A stretch of DNA of 64,000 bases from a candidate division SR1 bacterium (GTDB taxonomy: Bacteria; Patescibacteriota; Gracilibacteria; Absconditabacterales; Absconditicoccaceae), in the NCBI GenBank assembly GCA_026397515.1, contig JAPLUU010000021.1, positions 1 to 64,000 of the forward strand. Reading direction: 5' to 3'. Shown here piece by piece: positions 12,310 to 52,695 of the stretch. Numbering within the stretch: position 1 is the stretch's first letter; each line of letters opens with the position of its first letter. The notes under the pieces were generated by a model. That model saw only the letters and a list, made by a program, of their open reading frames with translations, searched no databases and was not told where the DNA came from. A program made the translations under genes and the position numbers.

Positions 12310-12420
12310 GCCTTGCCGGCTGGGCCTTACTTGTCCACGAAGGTGGGCTTTTTTCCTTCCAGGTGCCCTCAGACTTCGCTGAGGATCAAGAAAAAAAGTA
12401 AGCAAAAAACCCCTCGTCGA
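12310..12420. repeat. GC-rich structured non-coding element at island border
   Basis: Fills the gene-free stretch 12,286-12,601. Much richer in G+C than its surroundings. Contains outer inverted repeat CTTACTT (12,326) / AAGTAAG (12,396), and inner hairpins CCAC-GAAG-GTGG (12,335-12,346) and CCTCAG-ACTTCG-CTGAGG (12,367-12,384). It resembles the palindromic intergenic elements I know from Bacteroidota genomes (reading GCCCAGCCGGCAAGG and a paired AAGTAAG); that origin is inference. An open frame across it (12,313-12,501) looks spurious. Confidence 0.55.
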
Positions 12421-12601
12421 TTGCCCCTTCATATTTATTATATATTAATACTCATTGATTTTTTTTTGTTTCATTCAGCGATATTGCAATCGACCTTTTA
12501 AAATAATAACTAAATAACTATATATATTTTGTAAGAATATATAATTTTTTACGTCATAAAAAATCTTCATTATATTCGACCTTTTATTTTATTCCAATTT
12601 T

Positions 12602-12628
12602 AAAAAAAACCCAACGAATACCGCTGGG
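12602..12628 (-). terminator. Terminator of the first non-UGA transcription unit
   Basis: On the minus strand, a 7-bp stem (CCCAGCG / CGTTGGG) with 5-nt loop followed by eight T. Serves the two genes at 12,656-13,065. Confidence 0.85.
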
Positions 12629-12655
12629 ATTAGTTCTTTGCATGATAATATGCTC

Positions 12656-12853
12656 TTAAAATTGTTCAGGAAATTTTTCTTTAACTGCCATCATTTTAGC
12701 ATCAATATCGCCTTCTATGGTAGCTGCAAATGTCCTGATTTCTGCCATTTTACTGGCTATACCTGCAAATAATTCTTCATAGAATTCCATATCTTCATCA
12801 GTCCAACCGATGATATTGCGAATTCTTTTTTCGTTGGTTTCTTGTGTATTCAT
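12656..12853 (-). CDS. Small hypothetical protein, non-UGA gene
   Basis: 65 residues, acidic and helical (TDEDMEFYEELFAG). No family recognised. Stop is TAA, all glycines use GGN codons, unlike native neighbours. It begins 2 nt after the stop of the 69-residue gene upstream, so the two form a dicistronic unit with the promoter box at 13,081-13,108 and the terminator at 12,602. Likely a horizontally acquired gene of unknown role. Confidence 0.75.
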   Translation of the reverse strand: MNTQETNEKRIRNIIGWTDEDMEFYEELFAGIASKMAEIRTFAATIEGDIDAKMMAVKEKFPEQF

Positions 12854-12855
12854 TT

Positions 12856-13065
12856 TTATGGATTTTTTGCTTGTTCGTATTTGTGGATTTCTTTTATTGC
12901 TGTTGGACTGTATTCCAACGTCAACATTGCAACTCCTGGCATATGTTCTCTACGGAGTTTTTCCCTTTGTTTACCAGATAAATCTTTAAACCATTTGTTT
13001 GATTCCTTATAAGGATCTTTACATCCTGAATCATTACATTGTCTATGCTGTCTTGTTTTTGCCAT
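12856..13065 (-). CDS. Small basic hypothetical protein, non-UGA gene
   Basis: 69 residues, basic, with two cysteines near the N-terminus (QCNDSGCKDPYK) and a helical LSGKQREKLRREHMPG stretch. Function unknown. Preceded by an A-rich leader (runs of A with rare T directly before ATG), a start context typical of Bacteroidota. Stop TAA; no in-frame TGA. Confidence 0.75.
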   Translation of the reverse strand: MAKTRQHRQCNDSGCKDPYKESNKWFKDLSGKQREKLRREHMPGVAMLTLEYSPTAIKEIHKYEQAKNP

Positions 13066-13080
13066 TTTTTTTTATTTTTT

Positions 13081-13108
13081 TTTTTATATATTTATTCATA
13101 AAAGTCAA
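13081..13108 (-). promoter_or_regulatory. Cassette promoter box (copy a)
   Basis: Minus strand TTGACT followed by AAATATATAAA. The TATA element is about 2 nt closer than in the other copies (spacer ~14), so this is the weakest member of the shared box family. Confidence 0.6.
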
Positions 13109-13182
13109 CCTTTTGTAATATAATGTAACTATATACTACAAAATCTAAATATAGTGATGAAAAAAATAAAATAAATTGTTAT

Positions 13183-13208
13183 AAAAAAACCCCGGCAGAT
13201 ACGCCAGG
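13183..13208 (-). terminator. Terminator of the 135-residue gene
   Basis: Minus-strand stem CCTGGC / GCCGGG with loop GTATCT, followed by a run of seven T. Confidence 0.85.
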
Positions 13209-13232
13209 ATATTTGATGATTAAAATTCTTTT

Positions 13233-13640
13233 TTAGGGATGTAGTATAATACCCATTTTGCTGTATAATCGTTTCTTGTGATTCCAGTTCCATACAGCAA
13301 CGTTGGCTTCATATTGGTTGTCCGTTTTTTTTGTGTAGGACATTGAAATCTGGTAATTACCTATTTGTTGATTTTTATAGGTGAATTCTTTTTGAGGCAA
13401 AAGCAATGCTCTATTTACACACAGGGATTCTTTATGTCCTATAAAATACGTAGTATATTTAATTTTCTGATTACATAGATTATCAAATATATCGTCCACT
13501 AATTTTATTAATTCTGTTTTTTTATTTTTTTTGATTATATATATCAACAATATAATTATTCCCGTAAAGAATAATATTGTTATATATAATAAGCTAGTAA
13601 ATTGGTCTGTTTGCATGTTTTTTATGTTTTTGTATTTCAT
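13233..13640 (-). CDS. Membrane-anchored hypothetical protein, non-UGA gene
   Basis: 135 residues. One N-terminal membrane helix (about residues 16-37, LLYITILFFTGIIILLIYII), then a charged segment and a beta-rich domain (NYQISMSYTKK, ANVAVWNWNHKKR). No family recognised. Alone on its transcript with its own promoter box (13,643-13,670) and terminator. TAA stop, no TGA codon. Confidence 0.75.
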   Translation of the reverse strand: MKYKNIKNMQTDQFTSLLYITILFFTGIIILLIYIIKKNKKTELIKLVDDIFDNLCNQKIKYTTYFIGHKESLCVNRALLLPQKEFTYKNQQIGNYQISMSYTKKTDNQYEANVAVWNWNHKKRLYSKMGIILHP

Positions 13641-13642
13641 TT

Positions 13643-13670
13643 CTTATATATATTTCCTATTAAATGTCAA
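13643..13670 (-). promoter_or_regulatory. Cassette promoter box (copy b)
   Basis: Minus strand TTGACA, 16-nt spacer ending in AAATATA, then TATAAG. Starts only a few bases before the ATG region, so the leader is very short. Confidence 0.7.
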
Positions 13671-13686
13671 CATTACTTGCTATTAC

Positions 13687-13715
13687 AAAAAAAAGCCCAC
13701 CAAAAACGATGAGCT
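13687..13715 (-). terminator. Terminator of the trypsin-like gene
   Basis: Minus-strand 8-bp stem AGCTCATC / GGTGGGCT with 6-nt loop and eight T. Confidence 0.85.
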
Positions 13716-13735
13716 CTCATTATCTTTACCTAGTA

Positions 13736-14488
13736 TTAACTAGGTTTCTTTTCGTCATATACTATGTCTCCATATAATTCTTCGAAAACTTGTATGGGAA
13801 CAAATTGTGTCTGTTTCCCTTCATTGGTTCCGGTTACTTCTACGCCTAGTATACCATTTCTCCCAAGGATCAATCCACCGGAATCACCTGGTTCACCGAA
13901 CATAGTAAACATTTCCATTTCGTTGTGATTATTCAGTGTCCCAAATTTTCTATGGACGTTTCTGACGTTGAATGGAGTCAGCAAAACAGCAGAATCTCCT
14001 ACTATTATTTCCCTTGCAATTTTTCCTCGTTCACACAATGTAGGTAGTCCTTTGATCTTTTCTACTACTAACACTTCTGCATCGTAGAGAGTTGAGCTCG
14101 TCGAACGTGTCCATGATAATTTCGTTCTTCTGTTTTTGAAGTCGGTAACCCAAAGACCATATGACTTGGTTGAATCATAAGGAAAACAGTGCCTGGGAAG
14201 GATAAGATATGACATATTATCCTTGTTACAATAAAGACAACACTGTCCTGCCCATGCTTCACTCTTTTTTTTATCGGACATAACTACATAGAATTCAAAC
14301 ATTGAAGAATCAATTCCTTTCATGTATGCTTCATCGGGGAATGCTTTTCTTTCCCTGACTTTAACACTATTTTTGACAGCATTGATGTTTGATTTTGCTT
14401 CGTCTATAGTGCCGTTATTAGAATTGTTACAAGAGACCATTACAAGGACTATTGTAACCAAAATACCTATACAATAAATTTTTTTCAT
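13736..14488 (-). CDS. Trypsin-like serine protease lipoprotein, non-UGA gene
   Basis: 250 residues. N-terminal lipoprotein signal with Cys20-type lipobox (VLVMVSC), so exported and lipid-anchored. Chymotrypsin-fold catalytic triad is visible: His100 in LPRHCFPY, Asp136 in LYDAEVL, Ser203 in EPGDSGGLILG. Role probably extracellular proteolysis. Own promoter box and terminator. All glycines GGN, stop TAA, G+C higher than native genes; probable acquisition from a standard-code bacterium. Target unknown. Confidence 0.8.
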   Translation of the reverse strand: MKKIYCIGILVTIVLVMVSCNNSNNGTIDEAKSNINAVKNSVKVRERKAFPDEAYMKGIDSSMFEFYVVMSDKKKSEAWAGQCCLYCNKDNMSYLILPRHCFPYDSTKSYGLWVTDFKNRRTKLSWTRSTSSTLYDAEVLVVEKIKGLPTLCERGKIAREIIVGDSAVLLTPFNVRNVHRKFGTLNNHNEMEMFTMFGEPGDSGGLILGRNGILGVEVTGTNEGKQTQFVPIQVFEELYGDIVYDEKKPS

Positions 14489-14505
14489 GTTTTTTATTTT
14501 TATTT

Positions 14506-14533
14506 TTTATATATATTTACACATAAATGTCAA
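14506..14533 (-). promoter_or_regulatory. Cassette promoter box (copy c)
   Basis: Minus strand TTGACA, 16-nt spacer containing AAATATA, then TATAAA, followed by an A-rich leader up to the ATG at 14,488. Best match to the family consensus. Confidence 0.75.
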
Positions 14534-14728
14534 CTACTTGTTCATCTTTTATATTTTGTCAAATTTTATTAGTGGTTTCGGGTGTGTTTCTTGGTCTTTT
14601 TTCGTATTTTTGAGTATAATTGAATATGAATTTAGTATTTAGAATGTAAAAAAATAAACAACCTGTAGAATTTAGAAAAAAACGTAGAATAGTTTAATCA
14701 GAAAATTTATTTAATAAATATATATTTC

Positions 14729-16225: not shown

Positions 16226-16271
16226 CTTAATGCCTGAAATATTATATATCTGATTTTATTCTGTACAATAT

Positions 16272-23651: not shown

Positions 23652-26600
23652 TTATTTGTTTGCTTTAATCTGTAACTGTAATGTTGCGATTGGTTTGTTT
23701 GATTGATCTTTTACTACAAAACTTGTATTTTGTCCTGTCGAATCAAACATATATTCTCCCACCAATGAGCTTGCATAAATTCATGGTATATAAATAGCTC
23801 ATACATTATTGGTATACAGAATACAATCATTTTTGCTATTTTTGATACAATATCCATTACTAAAATCACCAAATCCGTCTGAGAGTTGTAGTTGTTCGTA
23901 GTTTGGTTTACCTGCATTCATTTGTATGTTTTTTATAGTTTCTATAGGTAATACTACTTGGAATAAGGTAATGTTTTTGGTTATATCTCTTAACTCAACA
24001 ACTGGGATATGTGTACTGAAATTTACCTGTATCTTTATTTTGTTTTCAAATCATGACTTGATTTTTATTTCGCCTGTTTTGGGATTTATTGTAGCTATTT
24101 CATTTCCTTGGGTATCATATAATCCAATATCATTTCCCATGGTAAATGTTCCTCCGGTAATAATTGTTTGTTTTGGTGAAAGACTAAATCCGCCACCTGT
24201 CATCTGGTTTGTTCCATTAATATTACCTCGTATACCGTTTCTTAGTCTTTGGAAGATAACCGTTCATTCATCGAGATCATTACTAATCTTTGCTACAATA
24301 TCTGCCGTTGTTTCTCCCGTTTTTTTGACATCAACCACTTCGATATCTGGTATGTTTATATTTAGTGTCACGGTTTCTTTGGTAATATTGTTGTTTTGAT
24401 CGATAGCAATAAAATCAAAGCTTTCCTGACTGGCTCAGGTGAAGAATAGTTTAGCTCATGAGAATAATGCTCATCAGATATCTATAGTTCCTGTTGACGA
24501 TTGATTGTTTTTTTCAAGAATAGTTACTCCATCTTTTTGTACAATCATTTTAGCAACAATTACATTGTCCGTCCACGTTGATTTGAGTGTATAGAGGGTA
24601 TTGATATATCATTGGTGTGTTACTCCTGTGCTAATCGCTTCGTTTGTTGTATTTCTCCATAAGACTACATCACCTACAGGGGCAGTCGTATCTCATAGAT
24701 TTTGCATTCCTGCTACGGTTTGATTTGATCGTGGAGATGATTTTTTGTAGAGTTTAAGTGTTTTTTGCTGACTATTACTTAAGTCTCCTTGGGTAATATT
24801 TAATGTTGCAAGATTTGTATATAACCATTTTCTTGGTAAATTTTTAAGTGTCACGGTTATTTTTTCTTGTTCTGGATCATAATATTCTACTGCTAAGATG
24901 TTGTTTTCTAATTGACTTGTGATACGTTTTTTTACAAAATCTTTGTCTATAGTAAGCATGATGCCTGTATACTCTGTATCTTTTGGTAATATTACAATAT
25001 ATTTTGCGCTATTCCCTATTCATAAAATATTTTCAAATCGAGAGTTACTTGGATCATCTTTGTTGTCTATATTATTACTTACTTTCATAATATATCCATC
25101 TATTGGCTCTCCTGCTTTTTGGCTGTTTTTTCGTGATAACTGTAAATTGTCGAATGTCTGTCCTTCTGTTTTGAAATTTTTTGGTTCTTTATTCTTTTCT
25201 ATAACTTTAATCTGAATATCTCCGATGGTCATATATCCATATTCATCCGTATTGTTTCTTACTTGTTCGAGTGATGAAATATATCGACTTGATTGATTAA
25301 ATATATTTCGTGAGTGTTCGTTTGCATAACTATAGAATGTAGTATATTTTTGAGTGATTATATTCTGTCATTTTGAAAGATGGACAGCGTCTTGTTTTGC
25401 ATACTTAATGTAGATAGCATTAGCATCGTACATCATGATATCAGAAAGTTTATCATTGTTGAAATCTGTATCTGTAGTGTATGTTTTTTCTACGTTTTGT
25501 ATTTGTTGGCTTGAAACGACTGTGTTTACCATTGATTTTTCACTGGTGCTTGAATTTTGACTTCCACTGTATGCTTCTACAAATACTCCTTGTACATATG
25601 CTGAAATATCTGTACTATAATTTGATTCTGTTGTACTTGAACAGTTTGTACATGTTCACTGTCCTTGTGCCAATACTGGTGTATCGTTATATGCAAGGAG
25701 GGCAGTGTCTATTTTTGCTTTGGTAGTTTCTAGATATTTCTTTGAATTTTTATATGTAGTAGCAGACATGTTAAGTTTTTCTGGACCATCATTATTGACG
25801 GCATCCAAATATCCGTTTACCATTCTTTGATTGATAGTGAGATATGTTTTTGTCGGATCTTCTTGTGCTTGTAATATATTTTTTGTGGTTCAATCAATGG
25901 TCAATAATTGTGCTTTCAAACTTACTGATGTTGTATCATCATTGACTAATGCTACTTCATTATTTCTTATTTTTTTAATGAAATTATCATAGTTCTGAAT
26001 TTCTTTTTCTAATTTTTTATTCTCTTTTATTTTGTTATTTATAATACCTTTTGCCTCTGCTTCTACTTGATTAATCTGGTTAGTTGCAGGTAAAACGGTA
26101 GATTTGTTTTCTACGGTTGCCAAAATAGTTTTGACTCTATCATTCATTTTTTTATCCGTGGTTGTTTTGTTTTGGAACTGTATGAGTCATTGTTTGAGGT
26201 CCGCATATGCTACTTTGTAATCTATCATTCCTGTCGTTTCTTCTTTTGGTGTACTATAGGCATTCACATTCACATTGATATTGAGATTCTGATCAAAATT
26301 TTGTACTTGATCAAATCCACTGGTTATAGCATTATTATTGAGTGTGTTATTGAGATTATCCATCGCCTTTTGTATTGGAGCTTCTATGGTTTTGGACATA
26401 AAATTATTCGACATCTGAGCAATGCTATTAAATACATCATATACACCATCAAAATTGAATTTGAGTGTGGTATATGCATCGAGTTTATAATCAAATCATT
26501 GTAGTGGAGGGTCTTTAAATTTTGTTGTCAGATCAAAATAATCAAAAATAGGAACGTTCCATGTTCTTTGTGTTAATTGTTCTACTTTCCCTTTGACTCA

Positions 26601-29600
26601 TTTTTCTCCTACAAGACCAATACCTCATTTTACGATACAGAATACTTTTCCTATAAAGTCTGCTACTTTAAGTATTGCACTTATTTCTGGCATTATCTTT
26701 GGAATCTTTGGTGCTGGTGGTAATACCGGAAGATCCATCTTTATACTTGGAATAAACGATGGCGGTTCAGGCAATGTTGGTGGTTCAGGGATGACAGGAA
26801 TTGTTGGTAATACAAAGTCTATGTTTACATTTAAATCAATACCTACATCGATTTCTGGTGGTTCAGGAAGATTTGGTAATTGTGGTAATGGTATCTTGAT
26901 CGGTACAAAATTTATCTTTGGTAATACTATACTCATACCCAAATCCATATGTGAAAGATCCATATATACGCTTGGTATCTTAAATGCTGGAATCGGGAAT
27001 ATCGGTAGTTTAGGACATAGGAATGAAAGACTACATGAAAATGAACCATAGTTATCGTTACTACATTTTGAACATTTTTCTGATCGATTTACTGAGAAAT
27101 CTATAATTGCTTGCCATGTTTTTATTGTTCCTACGAGAAGAATAATCGCATCCACATATTGTGAAAATCTTGTACCATTAACACTTAAGAAATTATTTAT
27201 ACTTCCTACAACATCTGAAATAAGCGCTGAGATCTCGGTTAAATATCTATCTGTAAGGTGTGTTCGTTGATATAATTGTGAAGGGAATTCTTTATACTTT
27301 TGAAGTACTTTGATATTTTGTTTAACTGCTCTTATACTTTCTGCAGTGCTTTCTTGAAATTTTACAAAACCTTGTATTCATCCTACTATATTACTACATT
27401 TTCCTACTCCATCTACTATTGTTGTTATATTGTCTAATTGTGTTTGTTCTTCTGGAGTTCTATTTTTTTCTCTCTTAAGCAACAATATTCATTGTATGCT
27501 TTTCCATTTTGCTAATTTAGCTACTTTTACCAAGGTGTTCTTAAGATTTATTCCCATATTTGCTACGTCACCTCGCATTTTTTCTGCAGTGGTATCTTCT
27601 GGTAGTTTGAGAATTCTATCCATATCGTTTATCTCAGTAGTTATCCGATTTTTTAAACCTTGTGTAGTGGTATCTGTTCATACTAATGTTGCTTGCAATC
27701 CTTCTAATTTAGTCTTCATATCTTGTGCTTGTGTCTTGTCTGTTGTACCACATATTGCTAATGCTTTATTCACTGCACCTTTCCAATCTTCTATTATTTG
27801 TTGTTGTTTCTCCATCCATATCGTCAGATAACTTACATATGCATTAATATCATCACTCGTGAGTGCTGGTACTTTGATATTAAGTTCTTTGGTATCTATA
27901 TTTATGAGTGGTACCTCATTGAACATTTGTTGGATAGCTTCAAATGGATTGCTTCCTACTTTTTGTGAAAGACTATTTAGACTTTGTTTAGAAAGATGTT
28001 TTGTTCGTTCTACTGTCCCTCATGTACTGTTTGGTTTGACATCTATAGCGTTTGCATTGGAGACTCAAATCAACCCTGCGGATTTGTCTGCCGCATTGAT
28101 TGATTTATATGTTTCTGATAGATTTCCTATCTTATCGAATCATTGAAAAACGGTACTCACATCAGGAAGATCAACTTGAATTGTCATCTTGGTCAGATTG
28201 TTTTGAATATATGTTATCTGACTAGTCATCCATTTTTGTACTATACATTTTACTAAACCTTTTGTTTTTGCTCCTACTATTTTGAGCGTGACCTTAGGTC
28301 ATTTTTCAAGAGTATATCCATCATAATCTGTTCATTCTTGTAGTTGTTGTGTTGCGTTACCATAATCTTGATTTGCTGAAACTCTAGTTGGTTCTTGATC
28401 CATAGCAATAAGTCACCATGCATTTCCTTGTGGCATTGCCGGGCTGTAATTCGTCGTACATGATTCGCAGGTATTCTCAAATGAATTTGCAGATGCTATC
28501 TGAAGCGGTGAATTTGCTGTTGTTGCTGTCTGTCCAAAGACTATGGTGTTGGTAACTTTTGGTGGATTGTTACATGTTCATTGTTTAGCTGCATTATTTT
28601 GTGCTGGAGTAACTGCTTCTGTAGGTGCTCATGGATTAGTGTTGGTATTGTTGCATTTTGTCAGTGGTGGTACAGCGAATACTACACAGTTTCCTCCCAA
28701 ATCACTAAATGGTTTTGGTAATACAACGGATGTAGCATAAGGTCCAAAACACATAGCTATTCCTAGTCCGAGTGTAAGGGTCGGTGCAATATATAATCTG
28801 AATTGTGATGAATACATTCCTCATGGTGCTCCAAGAAAAAATCCATCTGTGTCTGTAGGACCTCACTTTTGTGGAAATCCGAAAATTCCAAAAAATGGAG
28901 TTGGTCAAACAGGTGTTTGCAGTGTTGCTGGAATACTTAAGAGTGGCATCCCTTTTCCTAAAGTTTTATTGAGTGTATTAAATATTGGATAGAGTGGACT
29001 TGTTACTTTTGGTACACATCAAAAAACATGATAATCTCATGGAGCTAAGAATGCTTGATTAAATGGTACAGGAACTCACTGACATCATTTTCCTTTTGAT
29101 AAAGAAAATCATTGGCAAAGTCATTCGAGTGCTGCGTCCAATTTTTTGGATACTCCCGCTGTTGCTTGATCAATAAAATTCATACCGACGCTTAGATTTA
29201 CTCATAATCATCCATTGGTAAGCAGAGAACTCAGCAAGTTTTTTGCACTTCGTGCTTCCATATTTTCCATTCCCGGTACCGAAGAAACTGCTTCTAAACT
29301 ATCTACGTTTGCTAACGTATCTATCAAACCACCAATTGCTCCTTGTGTTGTTGCTTTTGCACCACTATTGTATGCATCCATTTCTACCTGGATATCATCA
29401 TATATTTGATCATATTTTCTTTTGTCTGTTGCATTGTTGAAAAATATTCGTCTATTTTTTTGACATGCATCAGCAGGACTTATTGCAATGTCTGGTAATG
29501 TGTCTTTATATTTGCTTTGTGGTAATAAATCTTGATCTTGTACTTCTATGTTTGTGATAGGTTGCCCTTGGTAGTTTACTTTGTATGAAAAACTTAGTTT

Positions 29601-37652: not shown

Positions 37653-37683
37653 AAAAAAACCTCAGGATGAAAACATCCCGAGG
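37653..37683 (-). terminator. Terminator of the GH16 cassette
   Basis: Minus-strand 10-bp stem CCTCGGGATG / CATCCTGAGG with TTTT loop and seven T. Confidence 0.9.
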
Positions 37684-37690: not shown

Positions 37691-38731
37691 TTATTGAATT
37701 ACTAATTTCTTTGTTGTTTGTTTGTTATTATATGTATATTTGATTACGTAAATACCAGGCAGTAAGCCAATAACTGATATATTTCCATTATTTATAGCTG
37801 TTTCTTTTACTAAGCTACCATTCATGCTATATATACTCACTATAATATTTTCCGATGTGTTGAAATGAATTACATCGTGAACAGGGTTTGGCCAAAAATT
37901 CACTTCTGCAACCATTGGTTTTATTGATACAATTGTTGTCATATTAATTATTGAATCAATACGTATGGAGTCAATCAATAATGAATATATTTGATTATCT
38001 GCTTGCACGTTGGTGGGTTGAAGGGCCACGTTATATGCAGAACTCCATTCTTGTGCTGGTGCCCACATGTTCAAATGAAAATGTGTCGGTGCAGTGGGAA
38101 CATTTGTAGATGTTCTTACCAATATTCCATCAATATACCAGGTTACTTCGTTTGGTAACCATCTTATCATAAATACGTGATAATCAGTAATTTGGTTAAC
38201 AATTTGTGAAGAGTCAGGATGACCTACACCGAGAGGTTCATTATTGTAAATATTTGTATGCACATAATTTGATTGGTTGGTTAATAATTCCCAATCAATC
38301 TCATTATGAATAGTGTTGCTTGGTGGAATTAAGTCGAATGAAAATAGTCCTGCCACTATTCCGCCAATCATTGGATTGTTGATTTTGGCTCTGATACTGA
38401 TAATTAAACCATTACCGGGTGCAAATGTTTTTTGGGTAATTAGATCAGTTCCATACATTGAAAATCCTGTCGGATTATACGTTTCTAAATTAACATACAC
38501 ATTGTCGTTGATGATACTTGGTAATGCAGCTGGAATACATCTAAATTGTGTTCTTCCGACGTATGTGCCGTCAGAGGGGCCAGTCCACGTAGGAATGTAC
38601 CACCAAGCGCTGTTTATTGATGTTCCATTAAATAGATCTCTAAAAATGTTAACGGTTGTTTGACCTTTTACTGTTACGGTTGCTATACTGAAGATAGCCA
38701 AAACGATTACTAATTCTTTAATTTTTTTCAT
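37691..38731 (-). CDS. GH16-like glycoside hydrolase with T9SS-type C-terminal tail, non-UGA gene
   Basis: 346 residues. Signal peptide MKKIKELVIVLAIFSIA. Beta-jelly-roll domain with the GH16 catalytic motif NEIDWELL (Glu144, Asp146, Glu148), so probably cleaves beta-glucans or galactans. C-terminal ~75 residues match type IX secretion sorting domains: NFWPNPVHDVIHF, IYSMNGSLV, GLLPGIYVIKY, KKLVIQ. That tail is a Bacteroidota trait and would be useless without a T9SS. Stop TAA, no TGA codon. Its promoter box begins 12 nt beyond the stop of the HD gene. Confidence 0.85.
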   Translation of the reverse strand: MKKIKELVIVLAIFSIATVTVKGQTTVNIFRDLFNGTSINSAWWYIPTWTGPSDGTYVGRTQFRCIPAALPSIINDNVYVNLETYNPTGFSMYGTDLITQKTFAPGNGLIISIRAKINNPMIGGIVAGLFSFDLIPPSNTIHNEIDWELLTNQSNYVHTNIYNNEPLGVGHPDSSQIVNQITDYHVFMIRWLPNEVTWYIDGILVRTSTNVPTAPTHFHLNMWAPAQEWSSAYNVALQPTNVQADNQIYSLLIDSIRIDSIINMTTIVSIKPMVAEVNFWPNPVHDVIHFNTSENIIVSIYSMNGSLVKETAINNGNISVIGLLPGIYVIKYTYNNKQTTKKLVIQ

Positions 38732-38767: not shown

Positions 38768-38795
38768 ATTATAATTATTTACTATTAAGTGTCAA
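38768..38795 (-). promoter_or_regulatory. Cassette promoter box (copy d)
   Basis: Minus strand TTGACA, 16-nt spacer with AAATAA, perfect TATAAT, then an A-rich leader to the GH16 ATG. Confidence 0.75.
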
Positions 38796-42331: not shown

Positions 42332-42332
42332 A

Positions 42333-42390: not shown

Positions 42391-42768
42391 ATGGAAAATA
42401 AAATTTCCCATCTTCCTGTTTTAAAAATTAAAACTGGAAACTATTTCCCAGAAATTTCTAGATGGATGCTTGTATTCTGTCTGATAGGATTAATTCTTCA
42501 TTTACTGGTCAATTCAATATTGTTTTTTGGGTATATATTTGTTTTAACCGGTATATTTGATCCTACTGTCGGTGTGTATTTGAATAAAATACCATTTAAT
42601 CAAATTAGTGCCTGTATATCGCTAATCTTCTTTGTATTTCCGCTTATAGTATGTTGTATAAAGTCATTTAACCGTTTATGAAATGGGTACTCTATATTCT
42701 TACATCAGCCGTGTGTGTTTTCCACCGGCTTTTTTTATTTCAGAATCCCGATAAAAATTATCGAATAA
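42391..42768 (+). CDS. Small membrane protein whose original stop is TGA
   Basis: In the standard code this is a 96-residue protein with two or three membrane helices (WMLVFCLIGLILHLLVNSIL, FFGYIFVLTGIF, ACISLIFFVFPLIVCCI) ending FNRL at TGA 42,679-42,681, with a terminator 26 nt later. In this host's code the TGA is Gly and translation continues 29 codons through the hairpin to TAA 42,766. All five or so ordinary glycines are GGN. Together with the promoter box this marks an acquired gene carrying a recoding scar. Function unknown. Confidence 0.65.
42707..42737 (+). terminator. Terminator lying inside the read-through frame
   Basis: Stem AGCCG-TG / CA-C-CGGCT with one bulged C, followed by seven T. 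It is placed correctly for a gene ending at TGA 42,681. Confidence 0.75.
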
Positions 42769-43883: not shown

Positions 43884-43905
43884 AAATTACTGTATTTCAT
43901 GAAAG

Positions 43906-43928
43906 GGCGGTTTTACACCGTCTTTTTT
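43906..43928 (+). terminator. Terminator of the nuclease gene
   Basis: 6-bp stem GGCGGT / ACCGTC, 5-nt loop, six T. Confidence 0.8.
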
Positions 43929-43933
43929 GTTAT

Positions 43934-43963
43934 AAAAAAAGTCCATTTCAAAACGAAATGGAC
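43934..43963 (-). terminator. Terminator of the lipoprotein cassette
   Basis: Minus-strand perfect 9-bp stem GTCCATTTC / GAAATGGAC with seven T; lies back to back with the nuclease terminator. Confidence 0.9.
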
Positions 43964-43993
43964 ACATATGTTTATTTTATTATGTTCTCTTAT

Positions 43994-44404
43994 TTATTTT
44001 TTAGTATCAGCGTGTATAGTATCTTCATGTATGCTGGTAATAATACCTCTCATTTCTTCTACCTGGGTTTCTCCATCACCATGAACTCTTTCGATGTATG
44101 GTCCCTTGATGGAAACAACTTCCCAAGATATCATCTCACCATAATTATGCATGACACATTTCAACTGAACAGTATCGTTCACTTTCGCCTTATCTTTATA
44201 AGGGAAGTCAATTGATTCAGCCTCTGTGTATCGTAACCAGTATTCTCCTCCTGGTGAATTAGCACCACCGTCACCCAAGTTATTCAATGCAAATTTTGGC
44301 CAGACGACTGTGATGTTCATCATCTTTTTTAGTTGTGGTTGTTGTACGTTGTTACAACCAGCAATAATGATTATAATCATTATTATAAAAATTTTATTTT
44401 TCAT
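43994..44404 (-). CDS. Small lipoprotein, non-UGA gene
   Basis: 136 residues. Lipoprotein signal peptide MKNKIFIIMIIIIIAGC with lipobox IAGC. Mature part is beta-rich (VNDTVQLKCVMHNYGEM, GEYWLRYTE). Function unknown. TAA stop, no TGA codon, own box (44,422-44,449) and terminator. Divergent from the MutS-like gene. Confidence 0.8.
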   Translation of the reverse strand: MKNKIFIIMIIIIIAGCNNVQQPQLKKMMNITVVWPKFALNNLGDGGANSPGGEYWLRYTEAESIDFPYKDKAKVNDTVQLKCVMHNYGEMISWEVVSIKGPYIERVHGDGETQVEEMRGIITSIHEDTIHADTKK

Positions 44405-44421
44405 GTGTTTTATTTTTTCTT

Positions 44422-44449
44422 TTTATATTATTTTTTTATCAAAAGTCAA
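44422..44449 (-). promoter_or_regulatory. Cassette promoter box (copy e)
   Basis: Minus strand TTGACT, 16-nt spacer, TATAAA, then A-rich leader to the lipoprotein ATG. Confidence 0.7.
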
Positions 44450-44514
44450 TCTTTTGTTTTAAAATTATAATCCGAAAATCACAATTGACTATATCAACAT
44501 AATAGTAATTTTAC

Positions 44515-44542
44515 TTGACATTATATTCTAAATATTTATATA
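44515..44542 (+). promoter_or_regulatory. Cassette promoter box (copy h)
   Basis: TTGACA, 16-nt spacer with AAATAT, TATATA; drives the MutS-like gene 84 nt downstream. Confidence 0.7.
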
Positions 44543-44625
44543 CTTTCTCAGTGAAAGAATCCCCTCTTTCTGATTATGATCATTAAAAAATATGTACTAA
44601 TAACTAATAATTAAATAAAATTTTT

Positions 44626-46374
44626 ATGAGAGAATTTAAACTTTTTCCCGATCTTAAAAAGTATTCCTATGTATCCAGTACCCAACATATTGGATTGGAT
44701 AACTTCTGCAAAATGATAGTGCAAGATTATTATCAACAAAAACGCTTTCCCGGCCAGGATAACATGATTGGTGAGATTATTTCATCTGGAGTCAATTTGT
44801 TATCAAGAATCTCTACTGACCCCAAGGAAATTATTGCCTTGCAGGATGCTGCCAAATTATTGATGCGCAACATCACCAAAAGCAAACGAACAAAACTTCC
44901 TCAAATGAATGATGCCACGTTTTATGGCGTAAGAAATAATCGTGACGGTATTGATACGGAAACACATAGGAATGCCTTGTTTACTTTCACAGACTTAAAA
45001 CAAGTTGTCCCTGTCCTGCGACCGGCCACTAAAAAGTCTTTTGAAGAAGATAGCCTATCGATTATTGATGATCTCTATGAAATGGTCAAAAGACCGGTTG
45101 AAGTACATTATTCCTTTGATATCAAAATCAAACGGGAAGAAAAACAGACGTATTCTGTTGTTGTTGTAACCGACTTATCTCCCAACAAGGAAAATTCCAT
45201 CTTCAAACCGTACAAAGGATACTCTAAATCCCATTTTTATACCAATAGATATCAACAAATAGAGTCTTTTTACGGCGATGAAGATACTCTTAATTTTCGT
45301 GATAGTTTCTGGGAAATGATAATTGGTAAATTCAACTTCAAGGATTTAGCAGTCGGTAGCAGTAAGAAATATACCATGACTGCTAAACTCTATTCTCATC
45401 GTGGAACATCGACGCTTAAGCTTGCCTATGCAAAAAATGATGTATATGTCGGACATTATCTAGATAAACATAAGAGAGGTAACTATAGCTTTACCAAGAA
45501 AAGAAAGACTCTAACCGATTCTCAGATATACAGTCTGATGAAGATATATCCTTCCGTATACTATAATCCGATCATCTTTCAAAGTCACGAGGTGACGGAA
45601 AGTGTTATCGAATTTGTTAGGCGCTTTTGTAGCAATCACACCCAGGAATTGTTTCAAATCGCATTGGCCGATTGGTTTACTAAAAGAACATATGTTTTCC
45701 CAGAGATACTTATGGAACCAAATGGCACATCTACACAATTTGTGGCTAGTGGCTTATTAAGTCCTACCCTGGTTGCTCAGAAGATTGCCGTGACACCAAA
45801 TGATGTCAGGATAGATGCATATCATCTTGGGAGTATTATTACTGGAAGAAATGCTGGCGGTAAAACATCATTCATCGATATGATTGGTATCACCTTGCTG
45901 TTGGTGCAAAATGGTTGGCCGACATTATCAGAAAAGCCTGCCGTACTTAAGCCATTTCAGAAAATTCACCTCCATTATATCGAACCCAATGTTATATCCA
46001 TTGGTAAAAGCCGATATTTGGATGAGCTTATACGCATCAAAGAATTACTTCCAAGACTCGTCATCGGTGATCTTATTTTATTTGATGAACCATTTACCGG
46101 TACGTCATACAAAGATGGAAAACGGCAACTCAAAAACATTCTCACAATCCTTGCAAAAACAGATTGTAAAGTACTGTGTACTACACATCTTTCTGCAATC
46201 ATTCCTAATGTGAAAACTTTGCCTGGATACCATAACTTACATGTTGGACCCGATTATACCGTACAAGCAGGCGGGGATGCCTCTTCTCACGGTACTGAAA
46301 TTGCCAATGCCCAAGGGTTATCCTTTGGTGGCATGAAGCAATTGGTAAAACATTTGTATAAGAAAAATGAGTAA
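44626..46374 (+). CDS. MutS-family ATPase without mismatch-binding domain, non-UGA gene
   Basis: 582 residues. The C-terminal ~200 residues are a MutS-type ABC ATPase: Walker A TGRNAGGKTSF (around residues 406-416), Walker B LILFDEPFTGT (Asp487-Glu488), H-loop CTTHLSAIIP. The N-terminal ~380 residues do not show MutS domains I-III (no Phe-x-Glu mismatch motif), so it belongs with MutS-related proteins of unclear role rather than MutS itself. Codon usage unlike native genes, no TGA codon, TAA stop, own promoter box and terminator. Probably acquired. Confidence 0.85.
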   Translation: MREFKLFPDLKKYSYVSSTQHIGLDNFCKMIVQDYYQQKRFPGQDNMIGEIISSGVNLLSRISTDPKEIIALQDAAKLLMRNITKSKRTKLPQMNDATFYGVRNNRDGIDTETHRNALFTFTDLKQVVPVLRPATKKSFEEDSLSIIDDLYEMVKRPVEVHYSFDIKIKREEKQTYSVVVVTDLSPNKENSIFKPYKGYSKSHFYTNRYQQIESFYGDEDTLNFRDSFWEMIIGKFNFKDLAVGSSKKYTMTAKLYSHRGTSTLKLAYAKNDVYVGHYLDKHKRGNYSFTKKRKTLTDSQIYSLMKIYPSVYYNPIIFQSHEVTESVIEFVRRFCSNHTQELFQIALADWFTKRTYVFPEILMEPNGTSTQFVASGLLSPTLVAQKIAVTPNDVRIDAYHLGSIITGRNAGGKTSFIDMIGITLLLVQNGWPTLSEKPAVLKPFQKIHLHYIEPNVISIGKSRYLDELIRIKELLPRLVIGDLILFDEPFTGTSYKDGKRQLKNILTILAKTDCKVLCTTHLSAIIPNVKTLPGYHNLHVGPDYTVQAGGDASSHGTEIANAQGLSFGGMKQLVKHLYKKNE

Positions 46375-46418
46375 TTACCCTTCTCCAGTCCGCATATATC
46401 AGGACTGAGTATATAAGC

Positions 46419-46449
46419 TTGCTCCCTATATTTAGGGGGCAATTTTTTT
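46419..46449 (+). terminator. Terminator of the MutS-like gene
   Basis: 9-bp stem TTGCTCCCT / AGGGGGCAA with ATATTT loop and seven T. A weaker hairpin (CAGTCC / GGACTG) precedes it at 46,386-46,407. Confidence 0.9.
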
Positions 46450-46493
46450 GTTACAAAAAAAACTATGCGCAATTATAGTAACATGATAACATA

Positions 46494-46700
46494 CTATTCT
46501 TTATTTTTATCTGGAGTGCCGAATGCATCTTCTTTAGTTTGGATACTCGTACCATAGCCATTTTCGAAAATAAGTAGATCTTCGGTAAATGTTATTGTTG
46601 TAAATTCTTTTCGAACTTTTTCATAACAAAGATTTGGCTTACTTTATAGCCATTTGTGCATTTCGAAGTAAAATTCAGCATTATTTAATGAAATGGGAAA
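46494..46700 (-). pseudogene. Decayed gene remnant with internal TAA
   Basis: Minus-strand frame reading SLNNAEFYFEMHKWL, TAA at 46,644-46,646, then SKPNLCYEKVRKEF, FTEDLLIFENGYGTSIQTK, ending DKNKE at TAG 46,494. TAA is a stop in code 25 too, and no start codon or promoter box is present, so this looks like the broken 3' part of a lost cassette gene. With the hairpins beside it, this accounts for most of the gap 46,450-46,825. Confidence 0.55.
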
Positions 46701-46702
46701 AT

Positions 46703-46725
46703 AAAAAAAACCAGAGTTTTTCTGG
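46703..46725 (-). terminator. Orphan terminator
   Basis: Minus-strand stem CCAGA / TCTGG with AAAAC loop and eight T. No gene lies directly upstream of it; it may survive from a deleted cassette or act as a second stop for the gene at 46,826. Confidence 0.65.
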
Positions 46726-46751
46726 GTATATTTTAATAAATAATTACATTT

Positions 46752-46782
46752 AAAAAAAACTACATCGGAAACCCAATGTAGT
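46752..46782 (-). terminator. Terminator of the 102-residue membrane protein
   Basis: Minus-strand 10-bp stem (ACTACATTGG / CCGATGTAGT, one G-U), 4-nt loop, eight T. Confidence 0.88.
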
Positions 46783-46825
46783 ATTACAATATTTTGTGTA
46801 TTTTTTAGCTTTTGATGGGTTATTC

Positions 46826-47134
46826 TTATTTGGCAGGTTTAGGATCTGGATTCTTTATAAATGCTTTAGCGATCCCCAGAGGAATAAAATAACACATCAA
46901 CAAACCTAATAAACTTACTGTCCATTTGACCATTTCTGGTTCATTCATGTCTATATTTTCCTTTGATAATTCGTTCAATTCTCCGATAATCCATACAATT
47001 GTGGTAACAACCATAACGGATTCCCAGGATAAATTCCAGGAATTTCTCAAGAAAAATGCAACGATACTTAGAACACAAGCGATCATAAATAATGGGCTTT
47101 GTAACGCTTCGATTGATAAATTTATAATATCCAT
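46826..47134 (-). CDS. Small integral membrane protein, non-UGA gene
   Basis: 102 residues with three probable helices (PLFMIACVLSIVAFFL, VMVVTTIVWIIGEL, WTVSLLGLLMCYFIPLG). Stop TAA, no TGA codon. The length and topology are loosely phage-holin-like but I cannot support that. Own box at 47,179-47,206 and terminator. Confidence 0.75.
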   Translation of the reverse strand: MDIINLSIEALQSPLFMIACVLSIVAFFLRNSWNLSWESVMVVTTIVWIIGELNELSKENIDMNEPEMVKWTVSLLGLLMCYFIPLGIAKAFIKNPDPKPAK

Positions 47135-47178
47135 ACTATTATGTTTTATTTTTTTTTATTTTTTTTATTTATGATAAT

Positions 47179-47206
47179 ATCATATATATTTTATATAAAA
47201 TGTCAA
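47179..47206 (-). promoter_or_regulatory. Cassette promoter box (copy f)
   Basis: Minus strand TTGACA, 16-nt spacer with AAATATA, TATGAT. Begins 20 nt beyond the stop of the glycosyltransferase gene. Confidence 0.65.
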
Positions 47207-47225
47207 TAGTATGTTTTTTTCTTAT

Positions 47226-48374: not shown

Positions 48375-48398
48375 CAATTACAAATTATGAATTAAGAA

Positions 48399-48911: not shown

Positions 48912-48927
48912 ACGATAACGATACAAA

Positions 48928-49823: not shown

Positions 49824-49831
49824 AATATTTA

Positions 49832-49958
49832 GTGAAAAGTTAAGAGTGAAAAGTGAATAGTGTAGGTATTTGTTGTAATATGAACTATTGTAATTTACGA
49901 TAGTTTGTAAGTATACAAATCATTCGTTATTAGTTTTTCGTTTTTCACTATTAGTTAA
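49832..49958. repeat. GTGAATAGTG / CACTATTAGTTAA-type filler
   Basis: Degenerate units in both orientations at the two ends (AGTTAAGAGTGAAAAGTG; TTTTTCACTATTAGTTAAT), capable of long-range pairing; same family as 3,878-3,960. Confidence 0.5.
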
Positions 49959-49959
49959 T

Positions 49960-50490
49960 TTAGAATCATTTAGCAATATATTGTACCAATCTAATAATGA
50001 CGTATGAGGATACTACGATGAGTAATCCTACTAGAGAACCAATTATTCCTTTTTTTGCATTTGCTGGATCTTTTCCTGAACTTGCTGCAAAGATAAACAT
50101 AAGTCCAGAAACTATAAGTGCTATAGTTACCAATGTTCCAATGAAAAATGTGGCAGAAAGTACTATATCTTGAACGAAAAGACCTACGGATGTAGGATCG
50201 TCCGTATTTCTTACGCTTTTCCTGATTCCAAGCGTATCGTAGATATTGAGTTTACATTGTCCGTTGACGAGTGATTTTTCGTCACAGGTGATTCACATGA
50301 CTGATTTATTTGATGTGGGTGTATTTGTTGTCGGATTGGGATTTGAACATGTTCATCCGCTTGCTGAATTATAAATTGTCCCTGTGTCTCAACAATTATC
50401 AAGATTTAATTGTTCTTGTGTTGTTAAAGCAAAAGAGAAACTGCTTCCTAAAAAAATCACAATCAAAAACGTACTAACTATTTTTTTCAT
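49960..50490 (-). CDS. Second VirB2/TrbC-like pilin
   Basis: 176 residues. Signal peptide MKKIVSTFLIVIFLGSSFSFA, an intermediate domain with three to four cysteines (NCGDTGTIYN, GGTCSNP, ITCDEK, GQCKLN), then two hydrophobic helices (DIVLSATFFIGTLVTIALIV; IIGSLVGLLIVVSSYVIIRL) split by basic GKDPANAKKG. The loop matches the KGK/AKK loop of the pilin at 22,239. Four or more TGA glycines. Stands alone upstream of trmD on the same strand. Confidence 0.75.
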
Positions 50491-50513
50491 TTTTTTGTAT
50501 ATGAAATAAATCA

Positions 50514-50566
50514 AAACCCCTCCATCCGCTTAGGCGGACACCTCCCCTTACCAAGGGAGACTATAT
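50514..50566. repeat. Palindromic intergenic element
   Basis: CCCCTCCATCCGCTTAGGCGG with hairpin TCCGC-TTAG-GCGGA and a following CCCCTTACCAAGGGAG hairpin. Elements of this wording are common between genes in Candidate Phyla Radiation genomes; not coding. Confidence 0.5.
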
Positions 50567-50633
50567 GGAAGATATTTTCTTATCTATATATTTTCTCCTT
50601 GATTTTGCAAACTAAGATATTAACCTAAGTAGT

Positions 50634-50912
50634 ATGAAATTACTCAAAGAATATATAAGAAAAACGCTTGCTCATAAGCATCTTGGCAGAGCGATGGTGG
50701 GTGCAGTAGCATTGAATACCGTAAGGACTATCTTGGAGATTCCAACGCTCGAATGATATGTCAGCTTCAATGTATTTTTTCTCAAAACAAACGATCAGGC
50801 TCTCAAGATAAAAATTTTTAAAGAAAAAAACCAAATATTACATGATGTAAATCTGGCTTTGGAGAAAATATGATATGCGACTAAAGTGCTTGAAATACGT
50901 ATTAAGAACTAA
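50634..50912 (+). CDS. Small DUF721/DciA-like protein
   Basis: 92 residues. Pattern HLGRAMVGAVALNTVRTIL followed by beta strands VSFNVFFLKTNDQALKIKIF and helix QILHDVNLALEKIGYATKV resembles DUF721 proteins (DciA, helicase-loading in other bacteria). The match is by pattern only. Two TGA glycines. Confidence 0.55.
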
Positions 50913-50998
50913 ATTTCTAATGTCATCTTGAATGTAATGAAAGATCTAGGTAAATACTATATTCTTCGATTTTGCTCAGAATGACAGTGGTTTAATTA

Positions 50999-51352
50999 TT
51001 ATTTTTTTTCATCTTCATCGTAGAATTTTTCATCCTTGAATTCTTTTTCAAAACTTTTGAATTCTTTGAGGTACATGGTTTCGAAGTCATCATATACTTT
51101 TTCCAAAAATTCAGGGAAGTTTTCTATTTTGGATTTAAGATAATCAGCTACTTCTGGAGTAACTCCTTCTTTTTCAAGAATATCCAAAAATCATTGTCCA
51201 TCTTTTTCGTCAATTTTCCCTACGATATGTGTCATCACTCGATCATAGAGTACTGGTTTAGTTTCCTCTATCATCATCTCGAGTCCTTCGTCATCGATTT
51301 CAGGAACAACTTTGATAATCATCTGTTCGATGAATATGTCCGTATCAATCAT
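50999..51352 (-). CDS. Acidic helical protein, DUF5663-like
   Basis: 117 residues, strongly acidic with EIDDEGLEMMIEE and a C-terminal run of Lys/Glu (FKSFEKEFKDEKF). One TGA glycine (GQGFLD). Similar in composition and plan to the 95-residue protein at 62,483. Function unknown. Confidence 0.65.
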
Positions 51353-51438
51353 GTTGTCTGTTTATTAATAAAATATTTATTGTCTAATACGTATGTATTT
51401 GTGGAAAAAAAACAAGATAAATTTTCTTTTATTTTTAC

Positions 51439-51466
51439 TTGACATTTCTATACTAATATATATAAC
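51439..51466 (+). promoter_or_regulatory. Cassette promoter box (copy g)
   Basis: TTGACA, 16-nt spacer with TAATATA, TATAAC. Confidence 0.7.
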
Positions 51467-51491
51467 AATATCGTCATTAAGAAATCGCCTT

Positions 51492-51518
51492 CCTAATGAT
51501 TAGGCAGAAACCGCCTAA
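51492..51518 (+). promoter_or_regulatory. Two mutually exclusive leader hairpins
   Basis: CCTAA-TGA-TTAGG (51,492-51,504) and TTAGGC-AGAAACC-GCCTAA (51,500-51,518) share TTAGG, so only one can form at a time. Placed between the promoter box and the start of the PKD protein gene; possible switch or simply stable leader structure. Confidence 0.45.
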
Positions 51519-51572
51519 ACACCAATGGCTCATAATCGTAGAAAACAAAACAAAAAATTTAATATTTACAAG

Positions 51573-52637
51573 ATGAAGACAAACAATTTAGTTAATGCTG
51601 AAAATTCAGCAGCAGATCTCAATCAGAAGAATTACACTCCTGAAAGCTGGGCCGCTTTACAAGCAGCTCTGAACTTACCGGAAACAAGTGAAGCAGAAGC
51701 TGATGAAAAGGCTGACACAATTCAATCCGCCATTAGCGAACTTGAACTTGTTGACGCTAAGGATCAGCCCAAGAAGAAAAAAGGATTCAATAAAAGCTGG
51801 CTTTTGCTGCTTGTGTTGTTACCTCTGGGCTACTGGTACTTCTTTACCGGTGGTACTTCCAAGGTTCTTGACCTGACTGTTGCTCCTATTACTGGTGAAC
51901 CTGGATTGGTTACAAAAATTACTGTCAAAGCCAATTTCGAGAAAGGAATATTGGATTATGGTGATGGTACCGATTCACAAATGACCGGTAATGGTAATAA
52001 AACTATAAGCTATGGTCCCGTTGACCACGTCTATAGTGACACAGGAGTCTTTGTAATCACTGTTAAAGGTATTTGGGGCAAGGATTCAACTGTTAAGACC
52101 GTTGAAATCCATGTTACAACACCGACACCAGCAGATACAACTAAACCTGGAACAACACCTGGTACAACCCCTGGTACAACCCCTGGAACAACACCTGGTA
52201 CAACCCCTGGTACAACACCCGGAACAACCCCTGGTACAACACCTGGAACAACACCTGGAACAACCCCTGGTACAACACCCGGAACAACCCCTGGTACAAC
52301 ACCTGGCACTATTACTCCTGGTACAACACCCGGCACTATTACTCCTGCCAAACCAAAACAGAAATTACCATTCCATTATTCGGTGATTATTGGTTCGGAC
52401 ACTACCCGGTTTCAAACCGGCGATACTACCACTATGGTATTTGATCAAAAGCCTACATTGATTACTGATTTTACCGGACAAACTGGTCCTCAGACCAAGT
52501 TCCAATCGGGAAATTCTAAATTCGATGTGAAAAAAGGTTATACTCTGATTCAGCGCCCTGATGGGAAATGGGTTATGAAGGGTGTCGGTGGCGATGAGCC
52601 GGCCGTTAAAGTTGGTAGGTACAAAGTTAAGTACTAA
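51573..52637 (+). CDS. Membrane-anchored PKD-domain protein with TTPG repeats, non-UGA gene
   Basis: 354 residues from ATG 51,573, chosen because an A-rich leader precedes it; ATG 51,525 is also open and adds 16 basic residues. FIVAR-like helical module (NYTPESWAALQAALNL), one membrane helix (SWLLLLVLLPLGYWYFF), a PKD-like domain (LDYGDGTDSQ, DHVYSDTGVFVITVKG), then about 17 tandem Thr-Thr-Pro-Gly units (52,140-52,345) and a C-terminal beta domain. TAA stop, no TGA codon among many glycines. Probably a cell-surface spacer protein of foreign origin. Confidence 0.8.
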   Translation: MKTNNLVNAENSAADLNQKNYTPESWAALQAALNLPETSEAEADEKADTIQSAISELELVDAKDQPKKKKGFNKSWLLLLVLLPLGYWYFFTGGTSKVLDLTVAPITGEPGLVTKITVKANFEKGILDYGDGTDSQMTGNGNKTISYGPVDHVYSDTGVFVITVKGIWGKDSTVKTVEIHVTTPTPADTTKPGTTPGTTPGTTPGTTPGTTPGTTPGTTPGTTPGTTPGTTPGTTPGTTPGTTPGTITPGTTPGTITPAKPKQKLPFHYSVIIGSDTTRFQTGDTTTMVFDQKPTLITDFTGQTGPQTKFQSGNSKFDVKKGYTLIQRPDGKWVMKGVGGDEPAVKVGRYKVKY

Positions 52638-52662
52638 CCAATTCAATCCATTATATTTACCG

Positions 52663-52695
52663 CCGTGAGAAGTTTTCTTTCTCACGGTTTTTTTT
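52663..52695 (+). terminator. Terminator of the PKD cassette
   Basis: Stem CCGTGAGA / TCTCACGG with a 9-nt loop and eight T. Confidence 0.88.

Follow-up and report, generated by a model that had tools for sequence, protein, structure and literature searches.

Mostly TGA-free single-gene units behind box promoters in a code-25 Absconditabacterales genome

TGA-free units in the window

We examined a stretch of 64,000 nucleotides (nt), here called the window (positions 1-64000 of contig C21, JAPLUU010000021.1), from a candidate division SR1 bacterium of the Absconditabacterales, focusing on genes without in-frame TGA codons and on the promoter box, leader and terminator that accompany them. The genome measures 1.21 Mb in 23 contigs and is 95% complete. 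Its use of genetic code 25, in which TGA is read as glycine, was borne out: the window translated in this code gives a dense gene map, and TGA makes up 33% of the glycines in native genes (1802 of 5393 codons), a rate computed on 242 genes picked for having at least two TGA. A native gene at 23652-37490 encodes a 4612-residue protein with 96 TGA glycine codons.

The initial annotation listed ten window genes without in-frame TGA, nearly all set between a shared box, an A-rich leader and a terminator at five separated places. All five places exist. Nine of the ten genes contain no in-frame TGA, but the open reading frame (ORF) at 42391 has one. Similarly, the layout holds for seven boxes with at most two mismatches (upstream of 12856, 13233, 13736, 37691, 44626, 46826 and the 51525 ORF) and for terminators recognized by eye, but not for 42391, which has no good box, nor fully for 43994, whose box is weaker. 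The features are as follows.

12602..12628, minus strand: terminator hairpin of 12656 (by eye)
12656..12853, minus strand: TGA-free gene, 65 aa, second in the 12856 unit; 44% match over 59 residues in G005
12856..13065, minus strand: TGA-free gene, 69 aa, first gene of a two-gene unit
13083..13108, minus strand: box promoter of the 12856-12656 unit (pattern match)
13183..13208, minus strand: terminator hairpin of 13233 (by eye)
13233..13640, minus strand: TGA-free gene, membrane protein, 135 aa; 33-37% relative at the equivalent site in G004
13645..13670, minus strand: box promoter of 13233 (pattern match)
13687..13716, minus strand: terminator hairpin of 13736 (by eye)
13736..14488, minus strand: TGA-free gene, 250 aa, lipoprotein-like signal; GDSGG near the C-terminus by eye
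14508..14533, minus strand: box promoter of 13736 (TTGACATTTATGTGTAAATATATATA); aligns with TTGAC..ATA boxes at the equivalent place in G002, G004 and G006
37653..37683, minus strand: terminator hairpin of 37691 (by eye)
37691..38731, minus strand: TGA-free gene, 346 aa, GH16 glycoside hydrolase with T9SS type A sorting domain
38770..38795, minus strand: box promoter of 37691 (pattern match)
42391..42768, plus strand: possible foreign gene, 126 codons, one in-frame TGA at codon 97; A-rich leader, without consensus box
43934..43963, minus strand: terminator hairpin of 43994 (by eye)
43994..44404, minus strand: TGA-free gene, lipoprotein-like, 136 aa
44424..44449, minus strand: weaker box of 43994 (by eye; within 3 mismatches)
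44515..44540, plus strand: box promoter of 44626 (pattern match)
44626..46374, plus strand: TGA-free gene, 582 aa, MutS domain V ATPase; matches in relatives 22-30%
46419..46449, plus strand: terminator hairpin of 44626 (by eye)
46826..47134, minus strand: TGA-free gene, membrane protein, 102 aa
47181..47206, minus strand: box promoter of 46826 (pattern match)
51439..51464, plus strand: box promoter of the 51573 gene (pattern match)
51573..52637, plus strand: TGA-free gene, TPGT repeats; ORF from 51525, 51573 the likelier start
52661..52695, plus strand: terminator hairpin of 51573 (by eye)

The start of the last gene at 51573, as first annotated, is supported by alignment of 51465-51572 as a leader with a congener; the 442 nt upstream that include its box are 79% identical in G002, where the protein has no detectable similarity. 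We regard 42391 as a doubtful, weak member of the set, given its one TGA and the lack of a good box; a TGA stop of the donor may now be read through as glycine. The GDSGG motif of the 13736 product may be protease-like, and that protein had no match at E 0.001 among 47 related genomes.

Against the same 47 relatives, the nine units yielded one clear ortholog (the GH16-T9SS protein, 52% in G005) and two weaker ones (37% in G004; 44% over 59 residues in G005), with further matches of 29% to the T9SS tail and of 32% to part of GH16 in another family. The G005 relative of 37691 (52-54%) is also TGA-free and lies at another site. Closest relatives bearing TGA in other code-25 genomes had been named beforehand as evidence against acquisition. 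The three of nine units with a clear or moderate congener relative have TGA-free ones in every case, but 44626 is not fully cleared: its distant MutS-family matches (22-30%) occur in many relatives, several with TGA, so that the objection may hold for this gene.

Two intervals beside the units drew attention. Positions 12245-12600 form a GC-richer stretch separating the SecY terminator from the first unit; an Rfam scan of the window found no RNA element at the gathering threshold. Between two units, 46450-46825 appears by eye to be a decayed coding remnant, possibly a dead unit.

Box promoters, leaders and donor markers

Sought across the whole genome, the box (TTGACW-TTT-N6-AAATATATATA; pattern TTGACWNTTNNNNNNWAATATATATA; at most two mismatches) occurred 75 times, compared with twice for a reversed control. 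Assignment by script linked 72 of the 75 sites to an ORF of 45 codons or more, no farther than about 330 nt away (some of these assignments are doubtful), and 46 of the 72 were TGA-free; 40 genes in the own-genome stretches examined combined a box, an A-rich leader and at most two TGA. At one mismatch or fewer, every one of the nine genus genomes had the box (6 to 35 copies); the 39 genomes from the family's other genera had 0 to 16 copies apiece, and 3 of 31 from the class's other families had a single copy. The reversed control gave none. The spacer in G028 is 16 nt. Some ends of contigs C2, C8, C12 and C18 of G000 have a box a few hundred bases away or less, perhaps because units vary in the population.

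Association with code use was measured on 1265 genes called on stretches from the nine genomes of the genus; these were sampled mainly around boxes, so that the tests give association, not genome-wide frequencies or proportions. A leader was termed A-rich with A in at least 14 of its last 25 bases and A-poor with at most 11. TGA was no criterion for choosing the box and leader classes, and the counts and contingency tests that follow were restricted to genes with at least five glycine codons. Genes with a box were TGA-free in 65 cases and TGA-containing in 55, versus 107 and 776 of the others (odds ratio 8.6, p 9e-24); the corresponding figures for an A-rich leader were 107 and 48, versus 64 and 783 (odds ratio 27, p 2e-60). 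With both box and A-rich leader, 57 of 76 genes were TGA-free (85 TGA among 1122 glycine codons), while box and A-poor leader together left one of 32 TGA-free (277 among 757). Box genes are of two kinds, split by the A content of the leader: those with an A-rich leader are mostly TGA-free, those with an A-poor one mostly contain TGA.

In G033, a single-contig genome of another genus with 44 boxes (one in the control), a TGA-free ORF followed four of the six boxes read, as it did three of five usable boxes in G022; both genomes also have TGA-rich genes with A-poor leaders behind the same boxes. In G013 and G017, seven of eight boxes with an ORF precede TGA-containing genes, the outcome to be predicted for a native box and units added to it.

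The TGA-free box units are shifted in codon usage relative to native genes, and tryptophan makes up 1.5-1.6% of their residues versus about 0.5% in native proteins, roughly a third. It is hardly credible that they are highly expressed native genes shunning a slow codon. Their promoters look strong, and a partial gene at the window edge, EF-Tu-like by eye, has one TGA versus 26 GGN codons; however, the window's ribosomal protein genes (named by eye) are rich in TGA (8 TGA with 23 GGN at 3029-3877, for example), as are the box genes with A-poor leaders, and the T9SS domains, the tryptophan content and the leader type would be left unexplained.

The leaders of the units (n=82) have A at -6 in 78% and at -10 to -13 in 79-90%. 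In the leaders of 583 native genes, A accounts for 24-40% across the final 25 bases and positions -15 to -22 are T-rich; the 34 TGA-rich box genes have leaders of this native, T-rich type. The median distance from box to start is 32. In Flavobacterium johnsoniae, according to the accessible part of one report (PMC6847099), the initiation region has no Shine-Dalgarno sequence, leaders average 33 nt, A is over-represented from -14 to -11, and A at -3, -6, -12 and -13 matters. The unit leaders share with this Bacteroidota region the missing Shine-Dalgarno sequence and the adenines at -6 and -11 to -14, but stand inside a code-25 bacterium whose own leaders are T-rich. Native genes are also without Shine-Dalgarno sequences, a similar motif preceding 2 of 242.

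The promoter shows a different affinity. Bacteroidota promoters are of the TTTG/TAnnTTTG type, again as far as the available text goes (PMC6847099), and TAnnTTTG lies close to 2 of the 82 units and to 40 of the 583 native genes. The architecture of the box, a 16-nt spacer with AAATA, precedes 89 of 163 TGA-free A-leader genes chosen without regard to the box (1.0 expected), 46 of 487 other TGA-rich genes (1.0 expected) and 13 of 285 conserved native genes (0.7 expected by shuffle; by eye these are 8 different genes, some recurring as orthologs). A cassette-specific box was rejected on this ground: the shared promoter, first read as the mark of a cassette, also stands before conserved native and TGA-rich genes, and it is the A-rich leader that marks a foreign ORF. 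Judged from these sequences, the promoter looks recipient-like, because its architecture precedes conserved native and TGA-rich genes and is not TTTG/TAnnTTTG, and the leader and ORF look donor-like.

Pfam searches of the 127 TGA-free units of the genus gave 25 families at E 1e-5, with 1 to 5 units each (at most 32 units matched). The T9SS (type IX secretion system) sorting domain, a Bacteroidota export tag, is found in a minority of five units and GH16 in two; single cases include NDK, SAICAR synthetase, AIR carboxylase, the arginase family, deoxyhypusine synthase, signal peptidase II, flotillin and MutS domain V, among others. The families resemble a chance sample of some other genome more than a set with a common function. 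T9SS-domain genes are present in 29 of 48 genomes of this family versus 3 of 31 of other families, with four matches in the bacterium's own genome. Three of five such matches in G042 are broken by two or three TGA and two are open, making them candidate older imports that use the new code. The closest plasmid match of an agmatinase-family unit is from Persicobacter (44%, E 2e-89), the others being at most 30% among the matches listed. The remaining plasmid searches gave matches uninformative as to donor, and two genome scans with single proteins found no donor relative, a result of little weight given the rare peptide patterns used.

Bacteroidota have been reported as gene donors to Patescibacteria (PMC12455944), and Absconditabacteria correlate with Bacteroidetes (PMC8406219). 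In the sections of these reports that are open, donor phylum and ecological setting agree with the present case, but they deal with single transfers or abundance correlations, as opposed to a set of units at promoter slots in a recoded genome.

Other origins and roles were rejected. Phage origin or cargo found little in PHROG (12 families, each in one or two of the 127 units) or in a viral collection (exact box in five contigs), and defence function little in PADLOC (three models, each in one of the 127). One viral-collection contig, open in code 25 with long ORFs (15163 versus 328 residues), has an exact box at L134:14177-14202; the ORF behind it is, by eye, tyrosine recombinase-like.

Slots between conserved neighbours

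All eight congeners have the native neighbours of the window units, arranged in the same way as far as the contigs show. At the site flanked by SecY and the 14729 gene, four foreign genes stand in the window, three in G002, two in G003 and a single one in each of G004, G007 and G008; G006 carries a lone TGA-free gene beside TGA-rich ones, G005 has only one, TGA-rich, and the site was not seen in G001. Convergent site D (43884-47225) spans 3.3 kb with three units in the window and 123-139 nt in G001, G003 and G007. In the genomes, out of nine, whose flanks were found, content between conserved neighbours varied at sites A, B, D and E: the same slots in congeners are empty or hold unrelated TGA-free genes.

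The assembly has 23 contigs, and the initial annotation allowed that the islands might be artificial joins. That the units are such joins, or contamination, now has a negligible probability: their flanks are conserved in independent assemblies of congeners, and TGA-free box genes occur in the single-contig genome of another genus (G033).

We compared, between species, the 600 nt upstream of TGA-poor genes with A-rich leaders and of box genes. Upstream alignments of at least 110 nt were obtained for 53 pairs and reached the position of the box in 14. Downstream of this orthologous DNA the genes were non-homologous in ten pairs, weakly similar in one and homologous in three, the last without a good box. 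Ten pairs had a box (at most three mismatches) on both sides (nine non-homologous, one weakly similar), although these represent only seven sites. DNA similarity from ORF to ORF was within the codon-shuffled range in nine of nine pairs, and upstream DNA of the same kind of pairs was 67-82% identical; fast divergence of one gene per slot was rejected for these nine. Six of these nine pairs were mapped across several kilobases, and in all six the DNA flanking the differing ORFs aligns on either side.

Relative to random unit pairs, the 60 nt upstream of the box were more alike in nine of the ten box pairs, the box itself in two (nominal p 0.005 and 0.025), and the leader and the first 60 coding bases in none. 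Because the upstream DNA is more alike than random in nine of ten pairs, the slot is, on this alignment evidence, orthologous, and the pattern suggests that the promoter itself may be resident there. Leaders orthologous up to the start codon were rejected, their similarity being no higher than that of random units.

Alternatively, whole units, promoter included, might originate in a donor whose promoters carry this box, with repeated insertion at identical points. The co-occurrence of box and A-rich leader in most units would fit such a history, as would the similarity of box and leader at orthologous sites, mostly no higher than in random units. Yet the architecture also stands before certain conserved native genes and before TGA-rich genes whose leaders are A-poor, most G013 and G017 boxes (seven of eight with an ORF) drive TGA-containing genes, and published Bacteroidota promoters are, in the available part of the source, TTTG/TAnnTTTG (PMC6847099); we consider this history unlikely.

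The arrangement of the units also raises the question of integron-like or other site-specific recombination. Up to six units stand adjacent in a run, neighbouring unit pairs are co-directional in 35 of 48 cases, and 8 of 115 units lie between strong direct repeats that mostly include the terminator (0.09 expected), a possible trace of tandem duplication or recombination. On the other hand, native pairs are co-directional too (187 of 285), and no conserved sequence was found upstream of the box; outside it, only the downstream A-rich leader is conserved. The integron integrase model TIGR02249 was over its cut-off in none of the nine genomes; sub-threshold tyrosine-recombinase matches, present in seven of the nine as in 14 of 14 control genomes, leave model positions 181-234 uncovered. 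We judge slots built by such recombination to be very unlikely. Near-identical terminator hairpins form direct repeats around single units at L217, L051, L237, L244 and L247, one a short way ahead of the box and one behind the gene.

Mobile integron cassettes are single-gene units in short arrays, with a promoter at the slot and interchangeable, unrelated genes. The units here are likewise mostly single genes in short arrays, and would resemble them further if the promoter belongs to the slot and unrelated genes are exchanged behind it, but no integrase exceeded the cut-off, no conserved recombination site was found, and each unit has its own promoter and terminator. With hot spots of horizontal gene transfer between core genes, as the accessible portion of PMC5635113 describes them, they share foreign genes at fixed places and quick turnover. 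They differ from such hot spots in having mostly one ORF per unit, with a recipient-type promoter and a donor-type leader, and in a code use that gives an internal clock.

Probable import and replacement of the units, and their age

From these observations (a foreign signature, differing affinities of promoter and leader, re-use of slots, and insertion relative to empty sites) we favour, with a probability of roughly 0.65, recurrent import of host or prey genes, leader and terminator included, into promoter slots, where most are replaced before TGA accumulates. The donors would be standard-code bacteria, at least partly Bacteroidota-like and probably hosts or prey. Their DNA might enter by a competence route (ComEC, the DNA-uptake channel, was found in six of the nine genomes, including this one), be joined illegitimately behind recipient-type promoters, and then be selected for expression. 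As TAnnTTTG promoters of the donor should fail in this cell, mainly ORFs behind a recipient-type promoter would be expressed and kept. Some tens of genes would have been imported, the unit usually consisting of a single ORF, an A-rich leader of donor type and a terminator, and being driven by a recipient sigma-70-like promoter that presumably resides at the slot between conserved native transcription units. Units would be gained, lost and swapped between species, and those retained would start to gain TGA glycine codons. The modular acquisition by a recoded, probably host-dependent bacterium envisaged in the initial annotation fits the data with two refinements: the shared promoter does not by itself mark foreign origin, and slots are used again for unrelated genes in different species. 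Capture of retro-transcribed transcripts was set aside, since reverse transcriptase (PF00078) was not found in the bacterium's own genome (95% complete); it was found in three of the nine genomes of the genus.

A more elaborate form of slot import is conceivable, if rather speculative: a dedicated system for trialling prey genes, in which resident promoters between native operons act as landing pads and transcript-like prey pieces (leader, ORF and terminator) are swapped in the manner of an integron without the integron integrase, the onset of TGA dating their arrival.

Units with A-rich leaders and one or two TGA exist and form a graded series; they look like older members, and strict avoidance of TGA was downgraded on their account. 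The units might instead have been resident for long and held free of TGA by selection, for instance if they have to be readable in, or move through, a standard-code host. In 21 syntenic homologous units there are only 6 TGA among 179 glycine codons, although the proteins are 27-57% identical, and a family at site E lacks TGA in four species (42 glycine codons). Against long residence stand the graded series, the ORFs at orthologous slots, which are unrelated and not merely diverged in nine tested pairs, and the random-looking known families (NDK, SAICAR synthetase, AIR carboxylase, signal peptidase II, deoxyhypusine synthase). We think long residence very improbable. The site-E genes of the four congeners (L170:222-692, L175:14460-14909, L183:2166-2612 and L186:2103-2582) encode small secreted proteins with a common C-terminal pattern of DP, an aromatic residue, a membrane segment and a basic end, which by eye resembles a sorting tag.

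Several points weigh against recurrent import followed by replacement. The 21 low-TGA units above come from 12 syntenic homologous pairs, one member of each pair having been selected for at most one TGA, but the freely found partners have only 3 TGA among 94 glycine codons. The TGA or GGN state of native glycines differs between species at 13-36% of conserved positions (34-46% if randomised), so simple ageing predicts more TGA in units kept since the species split; either relatives have displaced these units in more recent times, or there is partial avoidance of TGA. If promoters arose by mutation, one so close to consensus would be surprising on a young gene. The box rarely (2 of 10 pairs) and the leader in no pair exceeds random similarity, so that repeated insertion of complete units, each bringing its promoter, might also occur at a single point. 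The donor assignment depends on markers, with at most 32 of 127 units matched in Pfam. Finally, the effects of A at -3 and -6 are common to E. coli, where A at these positions also aids initiation (PMC6847099, in its accessible part), so that the leader is no absolute Bacteroidota mark.

Codon reassignment is often viewed as a barrier to foreign genes; here it marks them and supplies a rough clock, with which sequence data can be used to measure how fast, from where and with what outcome genes pass from host to symbiont in Patescibacteria. The split between recipient promoter and donor leader indicates roughly where foreign genes join host expression signals, and slot content may point to the bacterium's host. 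In open-licence literature excluding preprints, surveyed by titles and the starts of abstracts, no description of such units or of promoter-slot import in code-25 bacteria was found, and the accessible parts of reports on a gracilibacterial genome with a hypervariable gene (PMC6851277) and on Gracilibacteria proteogenomics (PMC11452946) contained nothing similar. At L059:3052-4515, two related units that are 56% identical stand in tandem, and the sequence downstream of them is almost the same.

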